Assembly (NCBI RefSeq): GCF_009649845.1
Contig: NZ_WJIE01000004.1
Coordinates: forward strand, 434,001 to 498,000
Origin: Polyangium spumosum
Lineage (GTDB): Bacteria > Myxococcota_A > Polyangia > Polyangiales > Polyangiaceae
DNA: 64,000 bases
Direction of reading: 5' to 3'
A model generated the notes under the pieces. The model ran no database searches. It saw nothing but the letters and a program-made list of their open reading frames with translations, and had not been told where the DNA came from. Position 1 is the first letter of the stretch. Each line of letters opens with the position of its first letter. This document shows positions 1-11,654 of this stretch, piece after piece. Made by a program: the position numbers and the translations under genes.

Positions 1-33
1 GCCGCCCGGGAAACCTGGCGGCCTTCTTCGTTT
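1..33 (+). terminator. Rho-independent terminator-like hairpin at left edge
   Basis: Bases 1-22 fold as GCCGCC/GGCGGC plus an inner GG/CC pair closed by a GAAA tetraloop, with a single C-T mismatch, and are followed by a pyrimidine-rich tail. This looks like the terminator or processing hairpin of whatever lies left of the window, before the tRNA-Tyr gene. Confidence 0.5.
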
Positions 34-53
34 GGGGCCGCTCATGAATATTC

Positions 54-132
54 GTGGACGCTGGGCATGGGTGAGCCCCGACGGCTGTAAACCGTCCGCG
101 TTTGCTTGGAGGTTCGAGTCCTCCCGTCCACA
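54..132 (+). tRNA. tRNA-Tyr(GTA)
   Basis: Acceptor GTGGACG (54-60) pairs with 125-131 and A132 is the discriminator. The anticodon loop 85-91 shows GTA at 87-89. The variable region is 11 bases, at the short end for a bacterial tRNA-Tyr. T-stem GGAGG/CCTCC with loop TTCGAGT. CCA is not encoded. It is the first complete gene of the array. Confidence 0.93.
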
Positions 133-135
133 CCG

Positions 136-190
136 GCGCGTGAGAAATCACGCGCGACAGGCGACGTGTGCGTGCAAGGCGCCGCCTGTT
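136..190 (+). other. Two strong hairpins between tRNA-Tyr and tRNA-Lys
   Basis: Bases 136-143 and 148-155 form a perfect 8-bp stem closed by a GAAA tetraloop. Immediately after it, 157-163 pairs with 183-189 (7 bp) and is followed by TTT. They may separate or stabilise array transcripts; no function can be assigned from sequence. Confidence 0.55.
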
Positions 191-192
191 TC

Positions 193-263
193 GGATTCGT
201 AGCTCAAGGGTAGAGCAGCCGCCTCTTAAGCGGCAGGCGAGGGTTCGATCCCCTCCGGATCCG
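193..263 (+). tRNA. tRNA-Lys(CTT)
   Basis: Acceptor GGATTCG (193-199) pairs with 256-262, one G-T pair, discriminator G263. Anticodon stem 218-222/230-234 encloses loop 223-229 with CTT at 225-227. T-loop TTCGATC. CCA is not encoded. Confidence 0.93.
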
Positions 264-359
264 CGACGTATCCCTCCTCTCCGGAGGCGGGACTCGTTCT
301 ATGACAATCGATTCCGATACACAACGCGATGTCGCAGGGGCACGTTTGCCCCTGCGCGT
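264..359 (+). other. Spacer with hairpins between tRNA-Lys and tRNA-Asn
   Basis: No gene is seen. The strongest structure is a perfect 10-bp stem (333-342 with 347-356) closed by a CGTT tetraloop, ending directly before tRNA-Asn. A smaller ATCG/CGAT hairpin lies near 307-317. It could be an attenuator, a processing signal or part of a small RNA. Confidence 0.4.
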
Positions 360-432
360 TTCAACGTAGCTCAACCGGTAGAGCACTCGCCTGTTAAGCG
401 AGGAGATGGGGGTTCGAAGCCCTCCGTTGGAG
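360..432 (+). tRNA. tRNA-Asn(GTT)
   Basis: Acceptor TTCAACG (360-366) pairs with 425-431, discriminator G432, and CCA is encoded at 433-435. The anticodon arm CTCGC-loop-GCGAG carries GTT. Only one base separates the encoded CCA from the next tRNA. Confidence 0.93.
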
Positions 433-436
433 CCAC

Positions 437-509
437 GCCCCGTTCGTCTAGCGGTCAGGATACCGGCCTTTCAATCCGGTTGCCGGGGGTTCGACTCCCC
501 CACGGGGCG
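437..509 (+). tRNA. tRNA-Glu(TTC)
   Basis: Acceptor GCCCCGT (437-443) pairs with 502-508, G509 is the discriminator and CCA is encoded at 510-512. The anticodon loop 468-474 has TTC at 470-472. The base pair next to the loop (C467/T475) is mismatched. Confidence 0.92.
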
Positions 510-516
510 CCATTGT

Positions 517-589
517 GTGGGCGTTACTCATCTGGTGAAGAGGGCAGGTTGTGACCCTGCGAAGGCGGGTTCGATTCCCGTACGCTCAC
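517..589 (+). tRNA. tRNA-His(GTG)
   Basis: The 7-bp acceptor 518-524/582-588 is extended by G517 facing C589, the encoded G-1:C73 pair typical of tRNA-His. The anticodon arm GCAGG/CCTGC holds GTG. CCA is not encoded. Bases 545-554 of its anticodon arm are complementary to 624-633 downstream. Confidence 0.93.
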
Positions 590-653
590 CCGAGAGGCGG
601 GTCGGAAGGTCTCGGTTATCCAATTGCAACCTGGTGAAACATCCGAGATCACC
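590..653 (+). ncRNA. Possible degenerate Y-RNA-like element upstream of rsr
   Basis: Bases 590-595 (CCGAGA) pair with 610-615 (TCTCGG), followed by TTATCC and AATTG. This resembles the stem-then-TTATCG module seen twice downstream of rsr. An alternative 8-bp stem pairs 608-615 with 643-650, so the two folds exclude each other. The lower stem would have to come from within tRNA-His (545-554 with 624-633). Its place between tRNA-His and the Ro60 gene supports a Y-RNA or leader role, but the evidence is structural only. Confidence 0.35.
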
Positions 654-726
654 CAGCTCATCCGTCCCTCATTCCCTTTCTTGATCCTTCTCTTTCACTC
701 GCCCGCAGCGCGGGCCGGAGGTTCCC

Positions 727-2388
727 ATGGCCAACTACATCCAGCACTTCGCCGCGCTGTTCACCCGACAAAAGGAGAAGGCGCGGCCCGAGCAGGTCGA
801 AAACTACGCAGGCGGCTTCGTCTTCCAGCTCGACGACTGGGCCCGCCTCGACCGGTGGCTCGTCCTCGGCGCCGACGGCGGCACCTACTACGCCACCGAG
901 CGCGCCCTGACGCAGGACAACGCGCGCGCCGTCCTTCGTTGCCTCGACGCGGACGGCGAGCGGGCCGTGCGGCGGATCGTCGAGATCAGCCGCTCGGGCC
1001 GCGCGCCCAAGAACGAGCCCGCGATCTTCGCCCTGGCGATGGCCGCGGGGCACGCCCGCCCCGAGGTCCGCAAGTCCGCACTCGCGGCCTTGCCGGAGGT
1101 TTGTCGCACCGGTACGGATCTCTTCCACTTCGCGCGAGCGGTGGAGGGCTTCCGGCGCTGGGGCCGCGGCCTCCGGAGCGCGATCGGCGCCTGGTACCAG
1201 GGCAAGAGCCCGGATGAATTGGCCTACCAGGCCGTGAAATACCGGCAGCGGGACGGCTGGAGCCACAAGGACCTCTTGCGACTCTCGCACCCGACGCCCG
1301 TCACGGACGAGCACGGCGCGATGTACCGCTGGATCGTCGGTGGTATGGACGCCGTGACGAACGAGGCGGCCCGCGGCGGGGCTCTCGACCCCGAGAAGCT
1401 GCCTGCCGTCGTCCGGGCGTTCGAGGAGGCCAAGGGCGCGCCGCGCGAGCGGCTCGTCACGCTCGTGCGCGAGAATCGCCTCACGCACGAGATGGTGCCC
1501 ACGGAGTGGAAGAACGACCCTGCCGTGTGGGAAGCGCTGCTCCCCCACATGCCGCAGACGGCGCTGCTCCGGAACCTCGGCAAGATGACCAGCGTCGGAT
1601 TGCTCGCGCCCATGAGCGCGGCCGCGAGGCTCGTGGCCAGCCGTCTCACGGACGCCGAGCGCCTCCGGCGCGCCCGGATTCACCCGGTGAGCGTTCTCTC
1701 CGCATTGCGCGTGTATGCGCAAGGGCGGGGCGAGCGCGCCCAGAAGCGCGAAAATGCGCTCACCTGGGAGCCGGTGCGCGAGATCGTGAACGCCCTCGAC
1801 GAGGCGTTTTACCTCGCATTCCGGTCGATCGAGCCGACGGGCAAGAAGCACCTGCTCGCCCTCGACGTATCGGCCTCCATGGATGGGGGCGCGATCGCGG
1901 GGATCCCGGGCCTCACGCCCCGGGTCGCGAGCGCGGCCATGGCGATGGCGACGGCGCGCATCGAGCCGTCGTTTTCGACCCTGGCCTTCGCCTCCGCGGG
2001 CGGCGCCTTTGGCCCTCGCGGGGTCTCGGGCGTCATGTCGCTGCCGCTGTCGCCGAGGCAACGCCTCGACGACGTGCTCGGCATGGTCAGCGGTTTGCCC
2101 TTCGGCGGCACGGACTGCGCGCTGCCGATGATCTGGGCTCAAAAGAACAAGGTCGAGGTCGACACGTTCGTCGTCTACACGGACAGCGAGACCTGGGCGG
2201 GTGAGATTCATCCTTTCCAGGCGCTTCGCGACTACCGGCAGGCGATGGGCCGTCCCGCAAAGCTCGTCGTGGTCGGCATGACCTCCACGGGCTTCACGAT
2301 TGCCGATCCGCAGGACCCTGGCATGCTGGACGTCGTGGGCTTCGACGCGGCCGCGCCGCAGGTGATGGCCGATTTCTCGAGGGCCTGA
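727..2388 (+). CDS. rsr: Ro60-family TROVE protein (Rsr)
   Basis: The 553-residue product has the size and layout of bacterial Ro60 orthologues. An N-terminal alpha-helical TROVE repeat ring (about residues 10-350) binds single-stranded RNA ends in its hole and Y RNA on its outer face. A C-terminal vWA domain (about 355-553) has a MIDAS-like set: DVSASM, GGTDCALP and DSETWAG. The start is fixed by GGAGG five bases before ATG. Ro60 proteins act with Y RNAs in RNA quality control and, with PNPase, in RNA degradation. This gene sits inside a tRNA array, with tRNA-His upstream and tRNA-Asp downstream, and Y-RNA-like hairpins follow it. No rtcB is in the window. A hairpin at 2403-2440 may end its mRNA before the tRNAs. 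Confidence 0.93.
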   Translation: MANYIQHFAALFTRQKEKARPEQVENYAGGFVFQLDDWARLDRWLVLGADGGTYYATERALTQDNARAVLRCLDADGERAVRRIVEISRSGRAPKNEPAIFALAMAAGHARPEVRKSALAALPEVCRTGTDLFHFARAVEGFRRWGRGLRSAIGAWYQGKSPDELAYQAVKYRQRDGWSHKDLLRLSHPTPVTDEHGAMYRWIVGGMDAVTNEAARGGALDPEKLPAVVRAFEEAKGAPRERLVTLVRENRLTHEMVPTEWKNDPAVWEALLPHMPQTALLRNLGKMTSVGLLAPMSAAARLVASRLTDAERLRRARIHPVSVLSALRVYAQGRGERAQKRENALTWEPVREIVNALDEAFYLAFRSIEPTGKKHLLALDVSASMDGGAIAGIPGLTPRVASAAMAMATARIEPSFSTLAFASAGGAFGPRGVSGVMSLPLSPRQRLDDVLGMVSGLPFGGTDCALPMIWAQKNKVEVDTFVVYTDSETWAGEIHPFQALRDYRQAMGRPAKLVVVGMTSTGFTIADPQDPGMLDVVGFDAAAPQVMADFSRA

Positions 2389-2402
2389 TTGCAGTCGAAA
2401 GG

Positions 2403-2445
2403 ACGAGGGGGAGCGTGCCTCCACACGCGCCTCCTCGCCCGGTTT
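2403..2445 (+). terminator. Hairpin downstream of rsr
   Basis: A long interrupted stem (CGAGG with CCTCG outside, GCGTG with CACGC inside) lies between the rsr stop and tRNA-Asp and is followed by GGTTT. It could terminate the mRNA or mark the 5' boundary of the tRNA transcript. The U-tract is short. Confidence 0.4.
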
Positions 2446-2519
2446 GCTCCCGTATGCTCTCTGGTGAGGCAGCCTGATTGTCGATCAGGTGAGGGCGGGT
2501 TCGAATCCCCCCGGGGGCG
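2446..2519 (+). tRNA. tRNA-Asp(GTC)
   Basis: Acceptor GCTCCCG (2446-2452) pairs with 2512-2518, discriminator G2519. Anticodon arm CCTGA/TCAGG with GTC. One T-stem pair is a C-C mismatch. CCA is not encoded. The Y-RNA-like stem begins two bases after its discriminator. Confidence 0.9.
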
Positions 2520-2520
2520 C

Positions 2521-2602
2521 TGGGACAATCGTCCGGTACATCCGTCATCAAACCCTCGCCCGGGGGCCGGGCCGAACGATGATGGTTATCGCAATTGTCC
2601 CA
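2521..2602 (+). ncRNA. Y-RNA-like hairpin RNA
   Basis: The terminal stem is 9 bp and perfect (TGGGACAAT 2521-2529 with 2594-2602). An asymmetric internal loop follows (12 bases on the 5' side, TTATCGCA on the 3' side). The second stem is 8 bp (CCGTCATC 2542-2549 with GATGATGG 2578-2585, one G-T), closed by a GC-rich 28-base loop. Paired ends, an internal loop and a second helix match the general plan of Ro-binding Y RNAs. The element lies between tRNA-Asp and a tRNA-like gene, so 3' processing and RNase P could free it. The same second stem plus TTATCG recurs at 2678-2691. Identification is inferred from structure and from the neighbouring rsr gene. Confidence 0.62.
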
Positions 2603-2609
2603 CGTATTT

Positions 2610-2730
2610 GCCGTCGTAGCTCAGCGGGTAGAGCAACTGACGCCTTCTTCGACAAACTCGTCCGAGTCGGGCCGGCAGAGGAAGGTTATCGTTATTCAGG
2701 ATGTCACGGGTTCGAGCCCCGTCGACGGCG
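2610..2730 (+). ncRNA. tRNA/Y-RNA hybrid: tRNA body with Y-like hairpin replacing the anticodon loop
   Basis: Acceptor (2610-2616 with 2723-2729, G2730), D-arm (GCTC 2619-2622/GAGC 2631-2634) and T-arm (2706-2710/2718-2722, loop TTCGAGC) are those of a normal tRNA. The anticodon stem is reduced to CTGA/TCAG, and its loop is 55 bases instead of 7. The insert has an 8-bp stem, CCTTCTTC (2643-2650) with GAGGAAGG (2678-2685), followed by TTATCGTTAT. This is the same stem-GG-TTATCG arrangement as the Y-like RNA at 2521-2602. No anticodon can be read. It is far too short for a group I intron. Bacterial Y RNAs are known to include tRNA-like modules; here the order is inverted, with the tRNA ends outside and the Y-like helix in the anticodon position. 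It may instead be a tRNA with a small intron. Confidence 0.6.
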
Positions 2731-2744
2731 CAGATTCACGGTTC

Positions 2745-2815
2745 GGGGTGATGGTTCAACGGAAGAACACTGCCCTTGCACGGCAGGGATCGGGGTTCGA
2801 GTCCCCGTCATTCCA
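2745..2815 (+). tRNA. tRNA-Ala(TGC)
   Basis: Acceptor GGGGTGA (2745-2751) pairs with 2808-2814 and includes the G3-T70 wobble that identifies alanine tRNAs; discriminator A2815. The anticodon arm CTGCC/GGCAG has TGC. 71 bases; CCA is not encoded. Confidence 0.93.
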
Positions 2816-2821
2816 CGAAAT

Positions 2822-2892
2822 GCGGTGGTGGTTCAACGGCAGAATCCGAGTGTGCCATACTCGGGATGGGAGTTCGACTCTCCCTCACCGCG
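2822..2892 (+). tRNA. tRNA-Gly(GCC)
   Basis: Acceptor GCGGTGG (2822-2828) pairs with 2885-2891, discriminator G2892. The anticodon stem CGAGT/ACTCG encloses GTGCCAT with GCC. T-loop TTCGACT. CCA is not encoded. Confidence 0.93.
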
Positions 2893-2897
2893 CTCTT

Positions 2898-2971
2898 GCA
2901 CTCGTATTGCTAGTGGGTCAGGCAGCCGGACTCTCAATCCGGTGACGCGGGTTCGATCCCCGCCGAGTGCG
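2898..2971 (+). tRNA. tRNA-Glu(CTC)
   Basis: Acceptor GCACTCG (2898-2904) pairs perfectly with 2964-2970, discriminator G2971. Anticodon arm CCGGA/TCCGG with CTC. It is the second Glu tRNA of the array, reading GAG. Confidence 0.92.
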
Positions 2972-3015
2972 CAAATCCGCCGAGGGGGTGAGCTGCTGAC
3001 TCGCCCCCTCATTCT

Positions 3016-3084
3016 CTCCCTGTCCTGGCGGCCAGGCGTCGGTCTACGAAGCCGACTGGCGAGGTTCGACTCCTCGCGGGGAGA
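3016..3084 (+). tRNA. tRNA-Arg(ACG) with collapsed D-arm
   Basis: Acceptor CTCCCTG (3016-3022) pairs with 3077-3083, A3084, CCA encoded at 3085-3087. The anticodon loop 3044-3050 holds ACG. The D-arm is only CTGG-CGG-CCAG, a 3-base loop lacking the usual GG pair, and the gene is 69 bases. The T-arm is normal. It may be a minimal or decaying tRNA. Confidence 0.8.
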
Positions 3085-3088
3085 CCAT

Positions 3089-3163
3089 GCCCTCGTCCTG
3101 CCGGTGCATGCAGGCGCGAGCGTCCGAAGCTCGACGTTCCAGGTTCGACTCCTGGCGAGGGTA
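3089..3163 (+). tRNA. tRNA-Arg(CCG)
   Basis: Acceptor GCCCTCG (3089-3095) pairs with 3156-3162, with G-T as the first pair; A3163. D-stem CTGC/GCAG. The anticodon stem CGAGC/GCTCG encloses GTCCGAA with CCG. T-arm CCAGG/CCTGG. CCA is not encoded. Confidence 0.9.
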
Positions 3164-3176
3164 TGTCCGAATTCAT

Positions 3177-3250
3177 CTGGGTGTGGCTCAACCTGGTAGA
3201 GCGCCGGCTCGGGGTGCCGGAGGCTGGGGGTTCGAATCCCCCCACCCAGA
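3177..3250 (+). tRNA. tRNA-Pro(GGG)
   Basis: Acceptor CTGGGTG (3177-3183) pairs with 3243-3249, A3250. Anticodon stem CCGGC/GCCGG with GGG. Its 5' half is identical to the following Pro tRNA for nearly 30 bases, indicating tandem duplication and anticodon divergence. Confidence 0.92.
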
Positions 3251-3268
3251 CAAGGCGCGCAGAAACAT

Positions 3269-3342
3269 CTGGGTGTGGCTCAACCTGGTAGAGCACCGGC
3301 TTCGGGAGCCGGGGATTGGGGGTTCGAATCCCTCCACCCAGA
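3269..3342 (+). tRNA. tRNA-Pro(CGG)
   Basis: Acceptor CTGGGTG (3269-3275) pairs with 3335-3341, A3342, CCA encoded at 3343-3345. Anticodon stem CCGGC/GCCGG with CGG. It is a tandem sister of the GGG isoacceptor just upstream. Confidence 0.92.
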
Positions 3343-3346
3343 CCAT

Positions 3347-3430
3347 GTCCACGTGGCGAAACTGGCAACCGCAGCGGTCTCAGAAACCGTGCTCGAAAGG
3401 GCAATGAGGGTTCGACTCCCTCCGTGGATA
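3347..3430 (+). tRNA. tRNA-Leu(CAG)
   Basis: Class II tRNA: acceptor GTCCACG (3347-3353) with 3423-3429, A3430. The anticodon stem GCGGT/ACCGT encloses CTCAGAA with CAG. A long variable arm (GCTC-GAAA-GGGC) is present, as expected for leucine. Confidence 0.92.
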
Positions 3431-3434
3431 TCAT

Positions 3435-3516
3435 GTCGTCGTGGCGGAATGGCATACGTAGCAGGCTGAGATCCTGTGCCCGCGAGGGCGTGTGGGTTCG
3501 ACTCCCACCGACGACA
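3435..3516 (+). tRNA. tRNA-Leu(GAG)
   Basis: Class II tRNA: acceptor GTCGTCG (3435-3441) pairs perfectly with 3509-3515, A3516, CCA encoded at 3517-3519. Anticodon GAG in loop CTGAGAT. The variable arm is GCCC-GCGA-GGGC. Confidence 0.92.
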
Positions 3517-3529
3517 CCAGCATCCCGCT

Positions 3530-3602
3530 GCTCGGGTGGCGAAATGGCAAACGCGGCCGGTTCAAACCCGGTTCATTGGGGGTTCGACTCCCTCTCCGAG
3601 CA
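3530..3602 (+). tRNA. tRNA-Leu(CAA) lacking the long variable arm
   Basis: Acceptor GCTCGGG (3530-3536) pairs with 3595-3601, A3602. The anticodon stem 3556-3560/3568-3572 encloses TTCAAAC with CAA. The D-arm resembles the two neighbouring Leu tRNAs, but the variable region is only five bases (TCATT) where tRNA-Leu normally has a long arm. Either the arm was deleted or the gene is decaying. Confidence 0.8.
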
Positions 3603-3662
3603 CCGGACCATCGCAGTTGGAGAGCGAAATGAAGAAGAAGAGATAGGACGGAGAGGTGGATC

Positions 3663-4178
3663 ATGACCGCGCAGACATTGCTGCTCACGCCCTGGATGGT
3701 GCCGCATCAGGTCATCTCCTGGCAGACCGCCGTGACCCTGAGCTTTCTGGGTAAGGTGGAGGTGCTCGAGACGTACGACGACGAGATTCGCTCGCCCACG
3801 ATGACCATTCGCGCGCCGGCGGTCGTCCGGCTCAAGCGCCATGGGAGTTCGCACAAGCGTGGCGTCAAGTTCTCCCGCACGAACGTGTTCGTGCGTGACG
3901 ACTTCCGCTGCCAGTACTGCGGTGTCCAGAAGGACGCCGGCGAGCTCACGTACGACCACGTCCTGCCGCGCGTGCAGGGCGGCCGGACGGTCTGGGAGAA
4001 CATCGTCGCGTCTTGCCAGAGCTGCAATACGAAGAAGCGCGGTCGCACGCCGGAGCAGGCGGGTATGAAGCTCTTGAAGAAGCCCGTGAAGCCCCGGTGG
4101 CTGCCCGCAGCCCCCGTCGTTCGGCTCGGCGCGCGCAGGATCCCGGAGATCTGGGTGCATTACTGTGCCGCGAGCTGA
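3663..4178 (+). CDS. HNH endonuclease
   Basis: 171 residues. The core HNH fold starts near residue 70 (RTNVFVRDDF), followed by the zinc pair CQYC, then DHVLPRVQGG with the catalytic His, an Asn in WENIVASC, and the second zinc pair CQSC near residue 120. This is the common bacterial HNH group (COG1403-type), usually a metal-dependent DNA nuclease. A purine-rich ribosome site, GGAGAGG, precedes the ATG. It lies between tRNA-Leu(CAA) and the Ser tRNA block. HNH genes often accompany mobile or phage DNA, which would suit a transferred tRNA array. The substrate is unknown. Confidence 0.85.
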   Translation: MTAQTLLLTPWMVPHQVISWQTAVTLSFLGKVEVLETYDDEIRSPTMTIRAPAVVRLKRHGSSHKRGVKFSRTNVFVRDDFRCQYCGVQKDAGELTYDHVLPRVQGGRTVWENIVASCQSCNTKKRGRTPEQAGMKLLKKPVKPRWLPAAPVVRLGARRIPEIWVHYCAAS

Positions 4179-4203
4179 GGTCCCCCCGCGGGGCCTTTTT
4201 TCA
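4176..4203 (+). terminator. Rho-independent terminator after HNH gene
   Basis: GGTCCCC and GGGGCC form a GC-rich hairpin followed at once by TTTTTT. It overlaps the end of the HNH gene and should stop transcription before the next small gene. Confidence 0.8.
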
Positions 4204-4228
4204 ACAATCCCTCATCGAGGAGGTACTC

Positions 4229-4468
4229 ATGACGCTCGAAACCAATCAAATGGCGGGCGTGCGGATTCGTTTGCCCATGGAGTCTGCGGCCGTCGCTGCA
4301 GTCGTGCTCGTTGGTGTCCTCATGCTCGCGATCGCCTCGCGGATCGTCGAGGTGAACGGGGCTTCACGGCCGGCAGGCGCGCGCTCGACGAGCGCGGCGT
4401 CGCCCGCCGACGCGCCGGACTCGGCGCGGTTGCTCGCGGATCGAGGACGCCCTGGGCGGCGGTTCTGA
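4229..4468 (+). CDS. Small predicted membrane protein
   Basis: 79 residues starting at ATG 4229, six bases after a strong GAGGAGG site. Residues about 20-42 are a continuous hydrophobic segment (AVAAVVLVGVLMLAIASRIV) that would span the membrane once. The rest is Ala/Ser/Arg-rich and low in complexity. I recognise no family. It lies inside the array between the HNH terminator and the Ser tRNAs. The good ribosome site is the main reason to call it real. Confidence 0.6.
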   Translation: MTLETNQMAGVRIRLPMESAAVAAVVLVGVLMLAIASRIVEVNGASRPAGARSTSAASPADAPDSARLLADRGRPGRRF

Positions 4469-4534
4469 GCATGACCGTCGAACGTGACCCTCACCTTCAC
4501 CCCCACGCGGCGCTGCGGCGTCGAATGGGGATCT

Positions 4535-4619
4535 GGAAGAAGAACTGGTCGGGGACCAGGCCTGTTTGGAAAACAGTGCGCACCTTTGTAGGTGTGAGGT
4601 TCGAGTCCTCCTTCTTCCG
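4535..4619 (+). tRNA. tRNA-Ser(GGA)
   Basis: Class II: acceptor GGAAGAA (4535-4541) pairs with 4612-4618, G4619. The anticodon loop TTGGAAA gives GGA. Long variable arm with CACC/GGTG. It is the first of four consecutive serine tRNAs. Confidence 0.9.
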
Positions 4620-4623
4620 CCGT

Positions 4624-4706
4624 GGAGAGCATTCCGGGTGTGGACCCGGCGCCGTTTTGAACACGGAGGGCAGCCTCGCTGCGGGGTTCGACTCCTCTGC
4701 TCTCTG
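4624..4706 (+). tRNA. tRNA-Ser(TGA)
   Basis: Class II: acceptor GGAGAGC (4624-4630) pairs with 4699-4705, G4706, CCA encoded at 4707-4709. Anticodon loop TTTGAAC gives TGA. Variable arm GCAGC-CTC-GCTGC. Confidence 0.9.
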
Positions 4707-4713
4707 CCATTCT

Positions 4714-4796
4714 GGAAGACGAACTGATCAGGGATCAGACCTGTTTCGAAAACAGTGGGCACCTACGGGTGTGGGGTTCGAGTCCTCCGGCTTCCG
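4714..4796 (+). tRNA. tRNA-Ser(CGA)
   Basis: Class II: acceptor GGAAGAC (4714-4720) with 4789-4795, one A-G mismatch at position 6; G4796; CCA encoded at 4797-4799. The loop TTCGAAA gives CGA. Variable arm CACC-TACG-GGTG. It is closely similar to tRNA-Ser(GGA). Confidence 0.88.
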
Positions 4797-4808
4797 CCAG
4801 GTGTATCT

Positions 4809-4892
4809 GGAAGCGAGAATCGGCCGTGGGGCCGAGCCCGTTTGCTACTCGGTGCGTGCCTCCGGCATGGTGTTCGACTCACCCCGCTTCCG
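4809..4892 (+). tRNA. tRNA-Ser(GCT)
   Basis: Class II: acceptor GGAAGCG (4809-4815) pairs with 4885-4891, G4892. The loop TTGCTAC gives GCT; the pair next to the loop is a T-T mismatch. It is the last tRNA of the array; the converging RpoC-like gene stops six bases further on. Confidence 0.87.
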
Positions 4893-4898
4893 CCGAGA

Positions 4899-5903
4899 TC
4901 ACTTCGATGGCAGGAGAGGCTCGAGCCCCGAGAGCACGAGCACCTTCATGAGCTCCTCCCCGAGCGGCTCCTGCGGGCGTTTTGCGGCGAGCGTCCACAG
5001 GTGGCGCATGATGGGGAGCCTGCCGCCTTCCGCGTCGCCGATACGTACAGCCTCCGTGATCCATCCGCTGCCGCCCGGGTTTTTCCGGGCAGCCTCCACC
5101 AGCGCCGGCGTGAGTGCCTCGAAAAACAGCCTGGTGGCGTCCATCATCGGCTTTCTGTGGCCTTCGTCGACGTCATCATACGTCCGGAAGTTTTCGAGCT
5201 CGAAATTGGCGAGGAGCTCGTCGACGGCCTCGATCGACATCCTTCGCTCGTTCTCGACGATGACGGCCGGCGCCTCGAGCTCCTTCAATCGGCGGAGCCG
5301 GTTTCTCCGGTTCACGATGCGCCGATATGCGTCGTGTAGCGTGCGGCAGAAGCACGCCTCGCCCACGAGCGCCTGGGATTCCTCCACGGTGGCTGCGCGA
5401 AGTGGGGGCGAAATCACGGGGATCGACCACCAGACGAGCTCCTTGGGGCACCAACCATTCGCCTGCCGCCCCGCCGCTTCGGCCTCGTCGACGCGCGCGA
5501 CGAGCGCGGCCGGGTCCTTGTAGGAAAGCTCGAGGATCTCCTCCTCGGTCATTGCGAGGAGCGGCGCCAGGAGCTGCCGCGCCGGCCACGGGACCACGGG
5601 CTCGACGAGCGCGACGTGCCCGCATCGCCGGAGATCCGGCGGATTGCCGAAGATCGACGGGCACAAGAGCCCTCCCGGCTCGGGACGTCCGGTGCTGAAG
5701 TTCAGCGTCTCCGGGCGCTGGATGTCGCCGGCGGACCACGATGGTGATCGCTCGGCGGCCGCGGCTTCGGGGAAGAGATCGAGCGTGCGGCCGCCGAGCC
5801 GCACGCCGAGCCCGAGCAAGCGGCCGAGCGCGCGGAGGCGCTGGAGGAGCAGCGACGACGGCAGGTCCATGGAGACGGTGACGCTTTGGGTTTCGCCGGG
5901 CAT
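4899..5903 (-). CDS. RNA polymerase beta prime N-terminal stub (RpoC-like)
   Basis: The 334-residue product (ATG at 5903; a TTG at 5924 would add seven) aligns by eye only with the first part of RpoC. WSAGDIQRPETLNF and LLCPSIFG match the beta prime opening (SWSxGEVxxPETINY, GLFCxxIFG). CGHVALVEPVV matches the GHIELASPVV segment, with the N-terminal zinc ribbon collapsed. IPVISPPLRA matches VxPPxLRP. DAYRRIVNRRNRLRRL and VIVENERRMSIEAVDELL match the clamp helices that bind sigma region 2. The protein ends soon after, so the active-site loop and everything beyond it is absent. It cannot polymerise RNA. Retention of the sigma-docking coiled coil suggests a sigma decoy or polymerase modulator, but that is inference. 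It converges on the tRNA array. Confidence 0.75.
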   Translation of the reverse strand: MPGETQSVTVSMDLPSSLLLQRLRALGRLLGLGVRLGGRTLDLFPEAAAAERSPSWSAGDIQRPETLNFSTGRPEPGGLLCPSIFGNPPDLRRCGHVALVEPVVPWPARQLLAPLLAMTEEEILELSYKDPAALVARVDEAEAAGRQANGWCPKELVWWSIPVISPPLRAATVEESQALVGEACFCRTLHDAYRRIVNRRNRLRRLKELEAPAVIVENERRMSIEAVDELLANFELENFRTYDDVDEGHRKPMMDATRLFFEALTPALVEAARKNPGGSGWITEAVRIGDAEGGRLPIMRHLWTLAAKRPQEPLGEELMKVLVLSGLEPLLPSK

Positions 5904-5980
5904 GAAGTCGCCTGTTTGCGTCAATCGACGTCGCGCGTCAATGGCGCCCGCGGGTCCGGGGCTTCCGCCCGGAGCGCTTC

Positions 5981-7069
5981 GTGTGGTACGATCGTCTCGT
6001 GATACGCAGCCTCCTCAGCACTGCGGCCTCGAGCTTCGATACCGCCGTGGGCGGGGCCCTGCTCCTCCGGCGCAGCCGGCCCAAGGGGCAGCCCGATCCC
6101 GAGGCGCTCGGCCACGCAGCGCGTATGGAAGCGCTCGCAGAGCTCCGGCGCACGTACGACCGGCCCGAGCATTATGAGCCGACACACGGGTTTTTCGCGC
6201 CCCCCGCCCCCCTCACGCCCTCCATCACCCGCGTGCGGCCGATGGGCGGGCCCGAGCCCGGCACCGTGCTGGATCTGACCTGGCCGAGCCTCTTCGAGCC
6301 GCTCGCGGAGGACATCCGCGCGAAATATCTCTCGCACGAGGCCAACGCCACGGCGGCGGCCCGGCTCTTCTTGCACGCGGGGCCCGCGCGCCCGGCCGCG
6401 ATCCTCGTTCACGGCTATCGTTGTGGTCAGTATCGGCTCGAGGAGCGCATCTGGCCCGTGCAATGGCTCTACGACCGCGGCCTCGACGTCGCGCTCTTCG
6501 TGCTCCCTTTCCACGCGGTGCGCTCGCACGAGGCGTCGCCGCGTTTCCCCGGCGGTGATCCGCGCGTCACGAACGAGGGGTTCCGCCAGGCCGTGCTCGA
6601 TTTGCGCGCGCTCGTCTCGTTCTTGCGGGATCGCGGCTCCGAGGCCGTCGGCGTCATGGGCATGAGCCTCGGCGGGTATTCGACGAGCCTGCTCTCGACC
6701 GTCGACGATCGCGTCGCGTTTGTGGTCCCGATCATCCCGCTCGCCTCGATCGCCGACGTCGCGCGCGCCGCAGGGCGGTTCGTGGGCAGCCCCGAGGAGC
6801 AGCGGCGCCAGTACGAAGAGCTCGACGCCGTGCACCGCGTCGTGAGCCCGTTCGCGCGTCCGTCGCGGGTCGCTCCGGAGCGGGTGCTCGTCCTCGCGGC
6901 GAAGAGCGACAAGATCACCCCGGTGGATCACGCGCGCCGCCTCGCCGACCATTTCGACGCTCCGCTCGAAACGTTCCACGGCGGTCATTTGCTCCAGTTT
7001 GGCCGGGCAGACGCCTTCCGCGCCGTGGGGCGGATGCTCGGACGAATGGGTATTTTTTCCCGCAGATGA
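5981..7069 (+). CDS. Alpha/beta hydrolase
   Basis: 362 residues, GTG start after GGAG. The nucleophile elbow GMSLGGYS (about residue 225), a late SDKITP (acid) and HGGHLLQ (His) form a plausible Ser-Asp-His triad. AILVHGYRCGQ near residue 137 is the oxyanion-hole His-Gly motif. The family resembles bacterial dienelactone-hydrolase-like or abhydrolase_18-type proteins of unknown substrate. There is no signal peptide, so it is likely cytoplasmic. Its stop overlaps the next start (ATGA), so the two genes are translationally coupled. Confidence 0.8.
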   Translation: MWYDRLVIRSLLSTAASSFDTAVGGALLLRRSRPKGQPDPEALGHAARMEALAELRRTYDRPEHYEPTHGFFAPPAPLTPSITRVRPMGGPEPGTVLDLTWPSLFEPLAEDIRAKYLSHEANATAAARLFLHAGPARPAAILVHGYRCGQYRLEERIWPVQWLYDRGLDVALFVLPFHAVRSHEASPRFPGGDPRVTNEGFRQAVLDLRALVSFLRDRGSEAVGVMGMSLGGYSTSLLSTVDDRVAFVVPIIPLASIADVARAAGRFVGSPEEQRRQYEELDAVHRVVSPFARPSRVAPERVLVLAAKSDKITPVDHARRLADHFDAPLETFHGGHLLQFGRADAFRAVGRMLGRMGIFSRR

Positions 7070-8352
7070 GCACGAGCGGCGAGCCCCCGAGCGAATCGAC
7101 CCTCGTCCTCACGAACGTCACCGTGAGCGAACGTATGCTCCGCCCCGCGCGCACGTTCGGGCTCGTGGGCCTCGCCCTTGCGTTTGCACCGCCGCTCGTC
7201 TCCGTGACCCTCGACGTCCTCCGGGCCGTGACCCGCGCGCCGGCAGGGGAGTTTTACGAAGATACCATTTTACCGATCGTGTGGCTCGTTTGCGCCTTGT
7301 CCGCGCCCGCGTTCGGCATCGGGAGCGTGGTCTTGGGGATTCCGACGACCCGGGGGTGGCGAGGCCCGGCGCGCGTCCTCGCGCATGCCGGGGGCCTGAC
7401 GTTCGAGCGCGGAGAGAGCATCGTCCAGTTCGTACCTCGCGCGGGCATCACGGACGCCGTCGTCGTGCCGGGCCCGGATCCGCGCCTGGACGTTCACCTC
7501 GTGCGCGGCAATGTCCTGTCCATCACGCTGCCGAGCGAGGAGCAGGGGCACGAGGCAACGGAGAAGCTCGGCTTTTCGCCCAGCGATCGGCGGCTCTCGA
7601 TCCAGCTCGCGTCGCCACGAGGCATGATCGTGGCCGCTTGTATGGGTTTGCCCGTGATCGGGCTCGTGCTCGTCGTGTTGGTCCGCGCGTTGCACGATAT
7701 TGGAATACCCAGGACGATGCAGGACGTCCTCGTCTTCGTCGCGGCGGTCTTCGTGACGTGGCTCGTCATTCGGGCGCAGAAGCCCGACGAGATCGTCATC
7801 GGCACGGACGGCGTCGTCGTGCGGCGGTTGTTTTCCCGGACATACCATTCCCACGCGGACATCGAGCACGTGGAGGCGAAGGACAGCAAGCTCGGGTTTG
7901 GCCTGCGCGGGGCAAAGAAGCTCGTCACCGCGGCGAAGGGGGAACCTCGGCTCATCCAGGCCGCCGCGCAGCGGATCGAGGGGGCGCGGAAGACGGGCGC
8001 CGTCGCCGAGGACGGCGCGAGGATCGCCGAATGGCTCGATCTCGGCGGCCGCTCGGTCGCGGCGTGGCGGGCCGAGCTCCCGGACCTTCTGGGGAATGCC
8101 AATTATCGCCGCGCGACCGTGACGCCGAGGGAGCTCGCCTCCGTGCTCGAGAATGCCGCCGAGCGTCGCGACCGCCGCCTCGGCGCCGCCATGCTCCTGC
8201 GGATCGCGGCGCCCGAGGAGGCGTCGAGGATCCGAGGCGCGGCGGACGCGGCGGCCGACGAGGACCTGCGCGCCGCGCTCGAGCGCGCCGCCGAGGAGGA
8301 GCTCGACGACGCGGCGATCGAGCGGGCGCTCGGCCTCACGCGTAAATCTTGA
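7066..8352 (+). CDS. Membrane protein of unknown function
   Basis: 428 residues. Two hydrophobic segments near residues 28-48 and 66-90 and two more near 185-205 and 218-235 separate soluble regions of beta character that could be PH-like domains; each pair of membrane segments is followed by a stretch such as GLTFERGES or IGTDGVVVRRLFS. The C-terminal 130 residues are alpha-helical and Ala/Glu/Arg-rich. No enzyme motif is seen. It is coupled to the hydrolase upstream and overlaps the aminotransferase on the other strand by 17 bases. Confidence 0.7.
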   Translation: MSTSGEPPSESTLVLTNVTVSERMLRPARTFGLVGLALAFAPPLVSVTLDVLRAVTRAPAGEFYEDTILPIVWLVCALSAPAFGIGSVVLGIPTTRGWRGPARVLAHAGGLTFERGESIVQFVPRAGITDAVVVPGPDPRLDVHLVRGNVLSITLPSEEQGHEATEKLGFSPSDRRLSIQLASPRGMIVAACMGLPVIGLVLVVLVRALHDIGIPRTMQDVLVFVAAVFVTWLVIRAQKPDEIVIGTDGVVVRRLFSRTYHSHADIEHVEAKDSKLGFGLRGAKKLVTAAKGEPRLIQAAAQRIEGARKTGAVAEDGARIAEWLDLGGRSVAAWRAELPDLLGNANYRRATVTPRELASVLENAAERRDRRLGAAMLLRIAAPEEASRIRGAADAAADEDLRAALERAAEEELDDAAIERALGLTRKS

Positions 8353-9700
8353 TCATCTTCTCCAGCCGGCCGAGGGCGCGCGTCAGCGACTCCTCGCCCG
8401 GGCCGAACGAGAACCGCACGTGGTGACGGAACCGCGAGGCCCGGTGCGCCCTGCGTTTGCCCGGGTTCACGTCGAAGAACTCGCCCGGCACCACGATGAC
8501 GCGGTGCTCGAGGGCGGCCCGGAAGAACGAATGCCCGTCGTTGATGCCCTGCGGGAGGTCCGCGACGGAGCCGAAGCAATAAAACGTCCCCTCGGGGGCC
8601 ACGTCGACCTGGATCCCGAGCTTGCGCAGGCCCTCCAGCATGAGGTCGCGTTTCTTCGCGAACGTCCGCTGGATCGCCGCCGTCTCGGCCTTCACGTGCT
8701 CCATGTCGAGCAGGGGCACGGCGGCGCGTTGCATCGGCTTCGAGCCGCCGCCGTCGAGGAAGCTGCCCGCGCTCGCCACCGCGTCGATCACCTCGCGCGG
8801 CCCCACGGTCCAGGTCACGCGCCAGCCGGGGTATCGCCAGTTCTTCGTCAAACCGTCGAAGATGACCACCGGATCCTGATCGACGTCCTCCACGTACCGC
8901 GCCGCGCTCTCCATGGGCGCGGGCCCGCCGAGGCCGTACACGTAATGCGAGTAGAACTCGTCGAAGAGCATCGTGCAATCGAGGTCACGCGCGGTGCGGA
9001 CCCACGCGGCGAGCTCCTCGCCTCGAATGTGTTTGCCCGTGGGGTTGCAGGGGTTCGAGGTGAGGATGGCGCCGAGGCCGCGACCCAGGATCTCCCGCCG
9101 GAGATCGCCCACGGAGAAGGCATAACCGCGCTCGCTCTCCAGCAGGATCGGGATCGGGGAGAAGAGGCGGAAGACGTCGAGCAGCTCCTCGTAGGCCGTG
9201 TAATCCGGGAGGAAATGGCCGAGGTTGATCTGCCCGAGGGCGGCGGCCGCGCGCGTGAGCGAGGCCCGGCCGCCGCCGGAGACGCTCACGTTCTCGGCGC
9301 TGTACCGCGAGGGCATGCCCCTCCGGTAGGCGCGGTTGTAGAAATCGGCGATCGCCTCGCGCAGCTCCCACAGGCCCGCGACGGGCGCGTACTCCTGATC
9401 GTCACCCGCGATCGTCACGGCCTCGCATCGCGGCGGCGCGCCGGGCAAGGGGCCGGTCTCGGGCTGGCCTTGGCCGAGGTTGCACCAGGCGTCCTCGCCC
9501 CCTGCGTCCACGCTGGGGCGATAGCCGTGTTTCTGGGCCTCGCCCATCACGTAAATCACCCCCGTGCGGGGCACCTTGCGGAATGCGCCGAGGGATTTCT
9601 CCTCGTTTGGGCCGCGCAGGATGGGCTCGCTGCGTGTCTTCGCCGGAGGGAGGGCCTCGGCGCCTTCGGGGGGCGTCTCGATCGTGTCGTTCGTGCTCAT
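8336..9700 (-). CDS. PLP-dependent aminotransferase, class I/II
   Basis: 454 residues, fold type I. Characteristic pieces appear in order: NLGQGQPETG, the substrate-side Tyr region EYAPVAGLWELREAI, SNPCNPTGK (PLP anchoring), LFDEFYSHYVYG, the Schiff-base lysine in FDGLTKNWRYPGWR, and the C-terminal VRFSFG arginine. This is the AspC/aminotransferase I-II superfamily; the amino acid used cannot be told. About 50 extra N-terminal residues are poorly conserved. It is followed downstream by the convergent membrane gene. Confidence 0.88.
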   Translation of the reverse strand: MSTNDTIETPPEGAEALPPAKTRSEPILRGPNEEKSLGAFRKVPRTGVIYVMGEAQKHGYRPSVDAGGEDAWCNLGQGQPETGPLPGAPPRCEAVTIAGDDQEYAPVAGLWELREAIADFYNRAYRRGMPSRYSAENVSVSGGGRASLTRAAAALGQINLGHFLPDYTAYEELLDVFRLFSPIPILLESERGYAFSVGDLRREILGRGLGAILTSNPCNPTGKHIRGEELAAWVRTARDLDCTMLFDEFYSHYVYGLGGPAPMESAARYVEDVDQDPVVIFDGLTKNWRYPGWRVTWTVGPREVIDAVASAGSFLDGGGSKPMQRAAVPLLDMEHVKAETAAIQRTFAKKRDLMLEGLRKLGIQVDVAPEGTFYCFGSVADLPQGINDGHSFFRAALEHRVIVVPGEFFDVNPGKRRAHRASRFRHHVRFSFGPGEESLTRALGRLEKMIKIYA

Positions 9701-9713
9701 GGCAATGGATCCG

Positions 9714-11654
9714 TCAGGCCTTGGCAGGGGGCATCGATTCGGGCTCGTCTCGGAGGGTGACGACCTTCGGCTCCACCGATTTCGGCAGGAGCGCGAGGAA
9801 GAGGCCCAGGCAGAAGGCGAGCGAGATCAGGGTGAGCGCGGTGTATTTGTCGTCGTTCCAGTAGGAGCTGATCCACACGAACTGGCTCAGCGCCGCGAGG
9901 CCGAAGAGCGGGGCCTCGAAATCCCTCCGCACCTTGGTGAGCGGCGCCGAGAGGATCATGAACGAGTAGTAATAACAGGTGAGCTGGGACAGGAGGATCA
10001 TCCAGATCTGCCCCAGGCACTGGGCCACCCACAGGTTCTTGAGGCGGCGCTGCACGTAGATGCTCAGCGCGAGGGTGAGCCCGATGATCAGGTACGCGAC
10101 GATCTTGTACTTCTTGTACCGCTCGTTGCGCATGTTCTTCCAGGTCTCGAAGGGATCGATGAGCTTGATGTCCTTCGTGAACTTCATGCGCCCGGAGGCC
10201 TTGCTCGCGGCCTCCTTGTAATGGAAGACGTCGCCGATCTTCTGGACCGTGTCCGGGCTCAGGAGGCCGCGGGCCTTGAGGCCGTCCGAGAGCGGCGTGA
10301 GCGCGTCGCCGATCTGCGAGATCGCCTGCGACTTCATGTCGTGCGCGATGATGACGCGCAGGCCCATGTGGTTCGTGAGCGGGGTCTGGTCGTGGACCTC
10401 GAGCGTGTGCTTGTAGAAATCGTGGTACGAGCGCGGGCCCGAGACCGCGATGCTGAGCGGGATGAGCACCGCCGCCGCGGCCGTGCCGCCGAGCAGCATC
10501 TGCACCTGCTCGCCCGACATCTTGCGTTTTCGCACGATCGTCCAGCCCACCGTCACGAGCAGGCCGACCACGCAGAGCCCGGGGAAGATACGCAAGAGTC
10601 CCGCATACACGAGCGAGGCGCCCGCGAGCTTCGGGTACTTCTTCCGGAGCAGGCAGACCGACAGGACGAGGAAGAAGATCCAGTCCTGCCGCAGGAACGC
10701 GCCGCCGGTCCAGTAGAACGGCGCCGACGACTGGCAACCCCAGAAGATCGCGCCCACCGCGAAGACGCGCCAGCCGAACGCCCACCACAGGGCGACGAAC
10801 ATGCCGAGCGTGTAGACGAGGTCGAGCGACGAGAGGAACTGGCAATACCAGACGCTCGCGGGCTGCAGTTCGGCGAAGAACCGGCCCATGATGGTCCACA
10901 CGGGCGGCGGGTTGTACCCGTGGTCCTTCTGCATGTCCTCCCAGTAACCCTTGCCGGAGACGGCCCGGAAGAACTTCACGTCTTCCTTGAACTTCTCCCA
11001 GCGCTCCGGGGGGAAATGGTCCTTGCAGGTCTCGCCGGGGTTCTCGAGGAAGTGCGCGGCGGGAACGAGGAGGTTGTCGCCGCCGAGGTTGCGGATCTTC
11101 TTGTCCGGGTGCCGCACCTCCTTCGTCATGTCGATGCGCTCGACCCGGCCGTTGTCGTGCTTGTAATTGACGACCCCGAGCTCGTCCTGCGCGACGAGGG
11201 CGCACTTGTAGAGGCCGTCGTACCCCATTTCCTTGAAGTACTTGGCCCCCATGTAATAGTGGAACTGATCCCATCGGTGGTAATACTGCGGGTATCCGAA
11301 GCGGAACCCGTTGAAGTAAGCCACGATGGAGGCCACGGCGAGCGTCACGCCGATGTACTTCTTCCAGCGCTCGGAGACCGGTCGCTTCATCGCCGCGCGG
11401 TGCTGCTCGTAGAAGACGCAGCCCGCCGCCGTGATGGCGAGCGCGGCCTTCATGATGTCGACGGTGCGGGCGTGGTCGTCGGTGAGCTTCGTGATGCCGA
11501 ACGCGGCGAGCGCGACCGTGCCGATCACCGCCACGTAGCGGAACCAGACGCGAAGGCGCTCGTCGATGGATCGATCGACGAACCACAGAAGGAAGAAGTA
11601 GACGCCACCGACGCTGACGAGCAGAGATATCTGCGAGATGCTGAGCTGCTTCAT
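9714..11654 (-). CDS. Polytopic membrane protein, probable GT-C-type glycosyltransferase
   Basis: 646 residues with about ten hydrophobic segments spread from the N-terminus to residue 620. A long hydrophilic loop (about residues 135-260) begins HRWDQFHYYMGAKYFKEMGYDGLYKC. Large loops and clustered helices resemble the GT87/DUF2029 and related GT-C glycosyltransferases that use polyprenyl-phosphate sugars at the outer face of the inner membrane. I see no clear DxD or ExD motif in the first loop that proves activity. An inverted repeat lies just upstream of its start. Confidence 0.5.
   Translation of the reverse strand: MKQLSISQISLLVSVGGVYFFLLWFVDRSIDERLRVWFRYVAVIGTVALAAFGITKLTDDHARTVDIMKAALAITAAGCVFYEQHRAAMKRPVSERWKKYIGVTLAVASIVAYFNGFRFGYPQYYHRWDQFHYYMGAKYFKEMGYDGLYKCALVAQDELGVVNYKHDNGRVERIDMTKEVRHPDKKIRNLGGDNLLVPAAHFLENPGETCKDHFPPERWEKFKEDVKFFRAVSGKGYWEDMQKDHGYNPPPVWTIMGRFFAELQPASVWYCQFLSSLDLVYTLGMFVALWWAFGWRVFAVGAIFWGCQSSAPFYWTGGAFLRQDWIFFLVLSVCLLRKKYPKLAGASLVYAGLLRIFPGLCVVGLLVTVGWTIVRKRKMSGEQVQMLLGGTAAAAVLIPLSIAVSGPRSYHDFYKHTLEVHDQTPLTNHMGLRVIIAHDMKSQAISQIGDALTPLSDGLKARGLLSPDTVQKIGDVFHYKEAASKASGRMKFTKDIKLIDPFETWKNMRNERYKKYKIVAYLIIGLTLALSIYVQRRLKNLWVAQCLGQIWMILLSQLTCYYYSFMILSAPLTKVRRDFEAPLFGLAALSQFVWISSYWNDDKYTALTLISLAFCLGLFLALLPKSVEPKVVTLRDEPESMPPAKA

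Follow-up and report, generated by a model that had tools for sequence, protein, structure and literature searches.

What kind of RNA is encoded at positions 2610-2730 of the window, by which we mean the entire 64,000-nucleotide stretch of Polyangium spumosum DNA analyzed here? The gene lies among tRNA genes close to rsr, which encodes an orthologue of Ro60, and combines the arms of a tRNA with a hairpin where the anticodon loop should be. We consider it probable, at roughly 0.7, that the product is a Y RNA in which an entire tRNA body, ending just as a tRNA does, forms the effector half; no data on its expression, binding or processing are available. Three points are established by sequence comparison: the RNA has a tRNA body, its anticodon arm carries a Ro60-type hairpin, and its gene keeps company with rsr. 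The features concerned are collected in Table 1.

Table 1. Features of the locus, with second-class loci of the same genome. Positions are those of the window unless a locus is named.
Feature	Position	Strand	Basis
Upstream tRNA array (Tyr, Lys, Asn, Glu, His)	54-591	+	ARAGORN
Probable third Y RNA, canonical (unpermuted) order	597-668	+	Read by eye from homologous upstream regions
Leader hairpin UCGCCC...GGGCCG, look-alike of the Ro-type helix, directly before GGAGG of rsr	699-717	+	Loose regular expression
rsr, Ro60 orthologue (TROVE + vWA_Ro60)	727-2388	+	PF05731, PF25045
Downstream tRNA array, with the 2521-2602 and 2610-2730 RNAs embedded	2446-4799	+	ARAGORN
Stand-alone RNA with the same module and its own terminal stem, TGGGACAAT/ATTGTCCCA	2521-2602	+	R2 match 2535-2592, fold z-score
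Putative tRNA-bodied Y RNA: acceptor, D and T arms of a tRNA; anticodon arm bears a Ro60-type hairpin	2610-2730	+	RF00005, covariation
55-base insert	2641-2695	+	R2 67.2 bits (in training), module covariation
Second-class loci of the window genome (G000:C5, C6)	L059 5208-5330; L069 2723-4351		

The tRNA body, its insert and its neighbours

The first-pass annotation had described intact acceptor, D and T arms around a 55-base insert that replaces the anticodon loop, and this description held. The Rfam tRNA model RF00005 spanned the RNA at full length with 49.7 bits (cut-off, 29), and the two ends of the RNA pair in an acceptor stem with seven of seven base pairs (2610-2616/2723-2729). The D stem (2619-2622/2631-2634) and the T stem (2706-2710/2718-2722), read off the sequence, are likewise intact. 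The bounds of the insert follow from the pairing of CTGA at 2637-2640 with TCAG at 2696-2699. Its 8-bp outer stem, with TTATCG (UUAUCG) behind it, was found as annotated, at 2643-2650/2678-2685 and 2686-2691, respectively. The inner, Ro-type helix (2658-2664/2668-2675) comprises seven pairs and a single bulged C, C2673.

Programs that treat the sequence on its own did not recover this architecture. ARAGORN made no call at 2610-2730 with or without its intron mode; the four calls peculiar to intron mode were artefacts and did not include this gene. The window copy lacks a 7-nt anticodon loop with U33 and R37 and has no readable anticodon. The minimum-free-energy fold of the isolated RNA had no D arm, did not yield the cloverleaf, and was of ordinary stability (z = -0.97). 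Support for the predicted structure is thus comparative, not thermodynamic.

In the portions of the literature available to us, the Ro60 site is laid out as a helix of approximately 7 bp with a single bulged C (PMC4726728), and the bulged C of this helix is kept in bacterial Y RNAs (PMC4030889). The insert has this main feature as predicted from its sequence; there are no binding data. The same partly available source gives the vertebrate site a three-nucleotide bulge on the strand opposite the bulged C, and denies any homology between the Y RNAs of bacteria and those of vertebrates (PMC4726728). The window module differs in this respect: beyond the seven-pair helix, 7 nt face 2 nt, a bulge larger than three nucleotides. 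A likeness to human Y1 RNA carries no weight as evidence here.

The rsr gene interrupts the tRNA array and is followed by tRNA-Asp, the stand-alone RNA, the RNA under study and further tRNAs. Its product matched the structure of Deinococcus Rsr (PDB 2nvo) with an E value of 3e-123. Elsewhere in the array, an HNH endonuclease gene occupies 3663-4178. Two tRNA-like stretches, 4623-4706 and 4809-4891, received no ARAGORN call and matched the tRNA-Sec model below its cut-off; they are probably Ser-type tRNAs.

The annotation had noted the same module in the neighbouring RNA at 2521-2602. Indeed, when the 64-kb window was searched with R2, a module model whose construction is given below, a match of 37.8 bits (E = 4.4e-7) was obtained at 2535-2592 to a copy outside the training set, in addition to the match at 2636-2692 to the copy used in training. 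A strict motif regular expression, applied to both strands of the window, matched only these two strong R2 sites, and it had no match in 200 simulated 64-kb Markov-1 sequences. The 2521-2602 RNA had a fold z-score of -2.82.

A third R2 match, at 570-622, was weak (17.6 bits, E = 0.067) and is the only R2 overlap of the probable Y RNA at 597-668. In that candidate, GGGUCG (599-604) comes first, GGUUAUC between, and UCAUCC (658-663) last. It lies between tRNA-His and rsr, and similar sequence occurs upstream of rsr in Polyangium and Sorangium loci. A loose regular expression matched the leader hairpin in 14 of 23 rsr loci at a distance of 28-35 nt upstream of the start codon, and two more loci had it farther away; the same expression has 17 matches across the two strands of the whole window. 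Because a look-alike of the Ro helix sits before the ribosome-binding site, Rsr may also hold down its own production whenever Y RNA runs short, which is a guess from sequence.

Conservation in the order and occurrence beyond it

Relatives of rsr at E = 1e-20 were found in 23 of the 183 genomes searched in the order. The rsr flanks were scanned, and rows were kept if they had seven pairs in the acceptor, showed the module motifs and were of suitable length; this left 24 RNAs of the same plan from 19 of the 23 loci. The other rows of the scan were tRNA pairs and chance joins that failed on acceptor, motif or length. As for the loci without an accepted RNA, L022 and L024 yielded only low-scoring forms (27.9 and 21.0 bits), L027 is cut by a contig end, and the Rsr of L028 is merely 30% identical.

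In the alignment of the 24 RNAs, 86.6% of 882 cells were paired, as compared to 78.0% after shuffling and at most 50.2% with the partner slid, and 21 of 37 pairs showed two-sided changes. The acceptor, D and T helices were 100% paired, two-sided changes included. Pairing was 92.3% in the Ro-type helix, 76.7% in the anticodon stem and 65% in the outer stem, this last value being low because some alignment rows are one base out of register. The R2 model was built from the nine consistent rows of the 24, MAFFT having shifted the outer stem by one base in some of the rows. Refitted with R2, 39 distinct module copies were 95.5% paired overall and 96.9% paired in the Ro-type helix with its bulged C, with two-sided changes in 10 of 16 pairs. 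Fitting an alignment to the structure favours the pairing figure; sliding lowered it to 50.5% or less.

The 183 genomes were also scanned with a model designated R1, using strict filters and 19 candidates scored per genome. Class-1 matches of at least 71.9 bits occurred in 19 of the 23 genomes with rsr versus one of the 160 without. All 19 genomes had supplied training sequences, so the former ratio holds by construction and only the latter is independent. In the single rsr-less genome with a match, G108, the match lies 116 bases from a contig end. R1 matches of approximately 73 nt, which scored no higher than 68.5 bits among the matches listed, were ordinary tRNAs and were left out of the counts.

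Additional rsr loci were fetched by similarity to Rsr, of which 79 of 251 named and 80 of 149 viral loci were kept. Since all were obtained through Rsr, these counts do not address presence without rsr. Ten of the named loci were the same as, or near-identical to, training genomes, and all 10 contained the module. Outside the training set, 27 of 69 named rsr loci and 12 of 80 viral-contig rsr loci had chimera-length matches of at least 69 bits; no match reached this value in the remaining 42 and 68, respectively. By record title, the 27 named loci include Chloroflexi, Armatimonadetes, Gemmatimonadetes, Tautonia sociabilis, Kofleriaceae, other Myxococcales and Actinomycetota; many are metagenome bins with unchecked labels. 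T. sociabilis is a planctomycete. The 27 do not include L121 and L142, whose matches (62.8 and 64.4 bits) showed no clear Ro motif on visual inspection.

Because Ro60 genes of other bacteria and of viral sequences are accompanied by the same combination, the tRNA-ended chimera looks like a real, little-noticed kind of Y RNA and not a broken tRNA. Together with the covariation and the bulged-C helix, this recurrence on bacterial and viral contigs supports the annotated Y-RNA-like hairpin within an outer tRNA that tRNA enzymes could handle.

Several of the loci had features of their own. In L025, L159, L170, L112, L117 and L136, several chimeras stand in a row beside one rsr gene. The chimera at L113 2073-2275 is 203 nt long, its Ro hairpin loop seemingly enlarged by an inserted repeat. 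At L132 5743-5811, a match to RF01656, a nematode small RNA family (38.2 bits; cut-off, 38), adjoins an Actinomycetota chimera. Nematode stem-bulge RNAs are related to Y RNAs, as far as the accessible text of one source goes (PMC4726728).

A Ro-like gene is present in 348 cultured-phage records. In Gordonia phage Cashline, a 144-nt match of 49.9 bits lies just before the Ro gene, and in Streptomyces phage Blueeyedbeauty, a match of 40.0 bits lies approximately 1.9 kb before it. Matches in phages Dietrick and Big4 were weaker than these two, the StarPlatinum region held ordinary tRNAs only, and the region of Agrobacterium phage Atu_ph07 gave no match. By eye, units of the form G-G/A-G-Y-C-G ... 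GGUU followed by a T arm were seen in five of the six phage regions, the exception being Atu_ph07. A blastn search of the phages with the window locus as query returned no match.

R1 also detected a second class of chimera, at 63.7-74.1 bits. Its hairpin has the core UUCUC...GCAGUGA, is inserted at the same point as in class 1, and is followed by GGUUA in most copies. The second class was present in all 14 genomes with a divergent TROVE protein, a second Rsr, of a 62-100% identity group, and in 13 of them the RNA and the TROVE gene share a contig and are separated by no more than about 8 kb. In the window genome, G000, the two lie near the ends of different contigs. Five further genomes encode TROVE proteins of approximately 32% identity; a motif regular expression found no second-class RNA in the four of these that were scanned. 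In one genome, the second Rsr gene (G163:C1:4250126-4251697) has one in-frame TAG in its match. In an alignment of 18 second-class sequences, 98.5% of 600 cells were paired and 13 of 36 pairs showed two-sided changes. The helix 29-31/39-41 was 100% paired, with two-sided changes in two of its three pairs, and the pairs 27-28/42-43 were invariant. In G000, the only genome whose neighbourhood was examined, 3.4 kb separate the class-2 gene from rtcB; rtcR lies in this interval and rtcA on the far side of rtcB.

The anticodon arm and competing readings

The position of the hairpin was analyzed in 81 pooled copies: 28 from the order, 39 from named loci (all matches of chimera length with at least 66.9 bits) and 14 from viral loci (at least 69.9 bits). 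A loose Ro-motif regular expression matched all 81, and UUA followed the motif in 77. A 3-bp hairpin with a 7-nt loop stood just before the variable loop in 46 of the 81 copies (shuffle mean, 8.8). Loops of any other length between 3 and 11 nt were each seen in 6 to 25 copies, the next most frequent being 5 nt, with 25. Requiring U33 and R37 in addition to the 7-nt loop left 31 copies (shuffle mean 1.4 and maximum 5 in 300 shuffles) and excluded 50; these 31, drawn from 26 loci, are not fully independent of one another. In 28 of the 31, tRNA positions 27-28 pair with 42-43 across the insert (partner-shuffle mean 8.0 and maximum 17 in 2000 shuffles). Based on this pairing, the hairpin of these copies lies between positions 28 and 29 of an anticodon arm that is otherwise complete.

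Conservation of the region after the insert differed among groups. In six Polyangium copies its mean pairwise identity was 73%, versus 83-94% for the other parts, and in five Sorangium copies it was 68%, versus 81-94%. This region being the least conserved, decoding does not appear to be conserved in the window's group. By eye, the five sisters of the window copy have loops of 5 to 7 nt, and all fail the 7-nt/U33/R37 test. In four Chloroflexi copies, the region was 79% identical versus 56% for the insert, and in two Oscillochloris copies it was 94% identical. Judged from these sequences, some constraint on the anticodon arm is likely outside the window's group.

A possibility that we regard as unlikely, without setting it aside, is that the RNA is a decoy or sensor, its tRNA body, along with the anticodon arm where one is kept, drawing anticodon nucleases, or enzymes that act on damaged tRNA, towards the Ro60 particle. 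The arms kept in 31 of 81 copies, with their varied anticodons, would suit such a role, as would the proximity of class 2 to the genes for RtcB, RtcA and RtcR in G000. It is harder to reconcile with the degenerate or missing loops of the window copy and its genus, and fragments of YrlA itself were not detected (PMC7790460).

The annotation had left room for a tRNA with a small intron: the Y-like hairpin would be excised and the two halves joined into a functional tRNA, RtcB being one candidate for the joining. We hold this to be improbable, and more so than a decoy. Introns of tRNA genes, archaeal and group I, do lie in the anticodon arm, and in the 28 copies in which 27-43 and 28-42 pair across the insert, removal of the latter would leave a normal arm. 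The better conservation of the post-insert region than of the insert in the four Chloroflexi copies and the rtcB, rtcA and rtcR genes near the second class in G000 point in the same direction. However, the anticodons differ among those Chloroflexi copies, the two Oscillochloris copies differ by one base in loop length, and in Polyangium and Sorangium no other part is as poorly conserved as the stretch behind the insert, where loop lengths vary. The window copy has no anticodon loop at all, and 50 of 81 copies fail the loop test. Moreover, the insert is a conserved hairpin that also occurs outside any tRNA, at 2521-2602, and the anticodon is not conserved, unlike the situation in tRNA-gene introns. 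Group I introns are also far longer than 55 bases. The intron proposal is therefore weakened by the missing loop, the poor conservation behind the insert and the stand-alone module, but it is not excluded.

That the gene is a tRNA pseudogene broken by a chance insertion is scarcely credible: the lost anticodon and the absence of an ARAGORN call would fit, but the covariation, with fully paired acceptor, D and T stems and two-sided changes in 24 homologues, contradicts it, as does the occurrence of such RNAs beside rsr in 27 of 69 independent named loci.

Relation to YrlA and possible role

The reading that we prefer, a Y RNA built on a whole tRNA, bears directly on YrlA. YrlA has been described as a large stem formed from its two ends plus a tRNA-like domain (PMC8394870), and the bacterial Y RNA structure 6CU1 can be superposed on tRNA if the latter is circularly permuted (PMC11472068). 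The Rfam consensus of YrlA runs Ro strand, T arm, acceptor, loop, acceptor, D arm, Ro strand. The window RNA resembles YrlA (RF02553; 6CU1) in having a Ro-type stem, a UUA-like linker, an anticodon-stem remnant, T arm, acceptor and D arm in the same circular order, and thus in its D/T/acceptor tRNA-like domain. The Ro60 partner of YrlA has its counterpart in the neighbouring rsr gene, binding data being absent for the window RNA. In contrast to YrlA, which ends on the Ro stem and has a looped acceptor, the window RNA is opened at the acceptor and its Ro stem is closed by a loop; some chimera copies also retain an anticodon arm. The annotation had placed the tRNA ends on the outside, unlike those of known bacterial Y RNAs, and the 7-bp acceptor stem formed by the ends bears this out. 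Read from its predicted structure, the window RNA is the other circular permutation of YrlA.

At cut-off, the Rfam YrlA model RF02553 had no match in 24 rsr-bearing loci, and the RNAs recognized there were called tRNA. The sole match within positions 1-10000, at 3201-3318 and below cut-off, joined the T arm of one tRNA-Pro to the D arm of the next and was rejected as a Y RNA; its only value is that it displays the arm order of YrlA. Tandem chimeras (L025, L159) read across neighbours would give the YrlA order, which suggests, by inference, a route between the two forms.

The likeness to other RNAs is more partial. As in vertebrate Y RNAs and, according to the accessible parts of reviews, the Deinococcus Y RNA, a bulged-C helix of Ro60 type adjoins a further stem. 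Unlike in the window RNA, the 5' and 3' ends of vertebrate Y RNAs pair and the Ro60 site is on that stem; no tRNA body is described in the portions of those sources at hand. The complete acceptor, D and T arms and the RF00005 match are those of a tRNA, from which the RNA departs by carrying a 55-base Ro-type hairpin and, in the window copy, by having no readable anticodon.

Y RNAs with a tRNA-like domain are already known; what appears to be new is the variant with tRNA ends. No description of this tRNA-ended (unpermuted) form was found in the open-access literature, some of it available only in part. A 2014 study by Chen reportedly identified tRNA-like Y RNAs in more than 250 species, and some of the genes described here may therefore have turned up there incidentally.

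If the RNA is such a Y RNA, we infer that it would be transcribed within the tRNA array, with RNase P and the 3' processing of tRNAs freeing it from that transcript. Rsr (Ro60) would bind the insert hairpin at its bulged-C helix, and a partner that binds tRNA, for instance PNPase, a nuclease or an enzyme that modifies tRNA, would use the tRNA body as its handle. A broader proposal, possible but doubtful when taken as the single claim that it is, would make these RNAs widespread and two-faced. They would be complete tRNAs with a Ro60 docking hairpin at 28/29 and, in many lineages, a working-looking anticodon arm, and through them Ro60 particles would reach the ribosome, anticodon nucleases or enzymes that act on tRNA; YrlA would have arisen from tandem copies by a shift of ends, and at least two Ro60 families would each have their own version.

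A Y RNA with tRNA ends would offer a direct way to ask what purpose the tRNA mimicry of Y RNAs serves and how YrlA originated. The copies with an intact anticodon arm would make a role of Ro60 particles in tRNA cleavage and repair testable.
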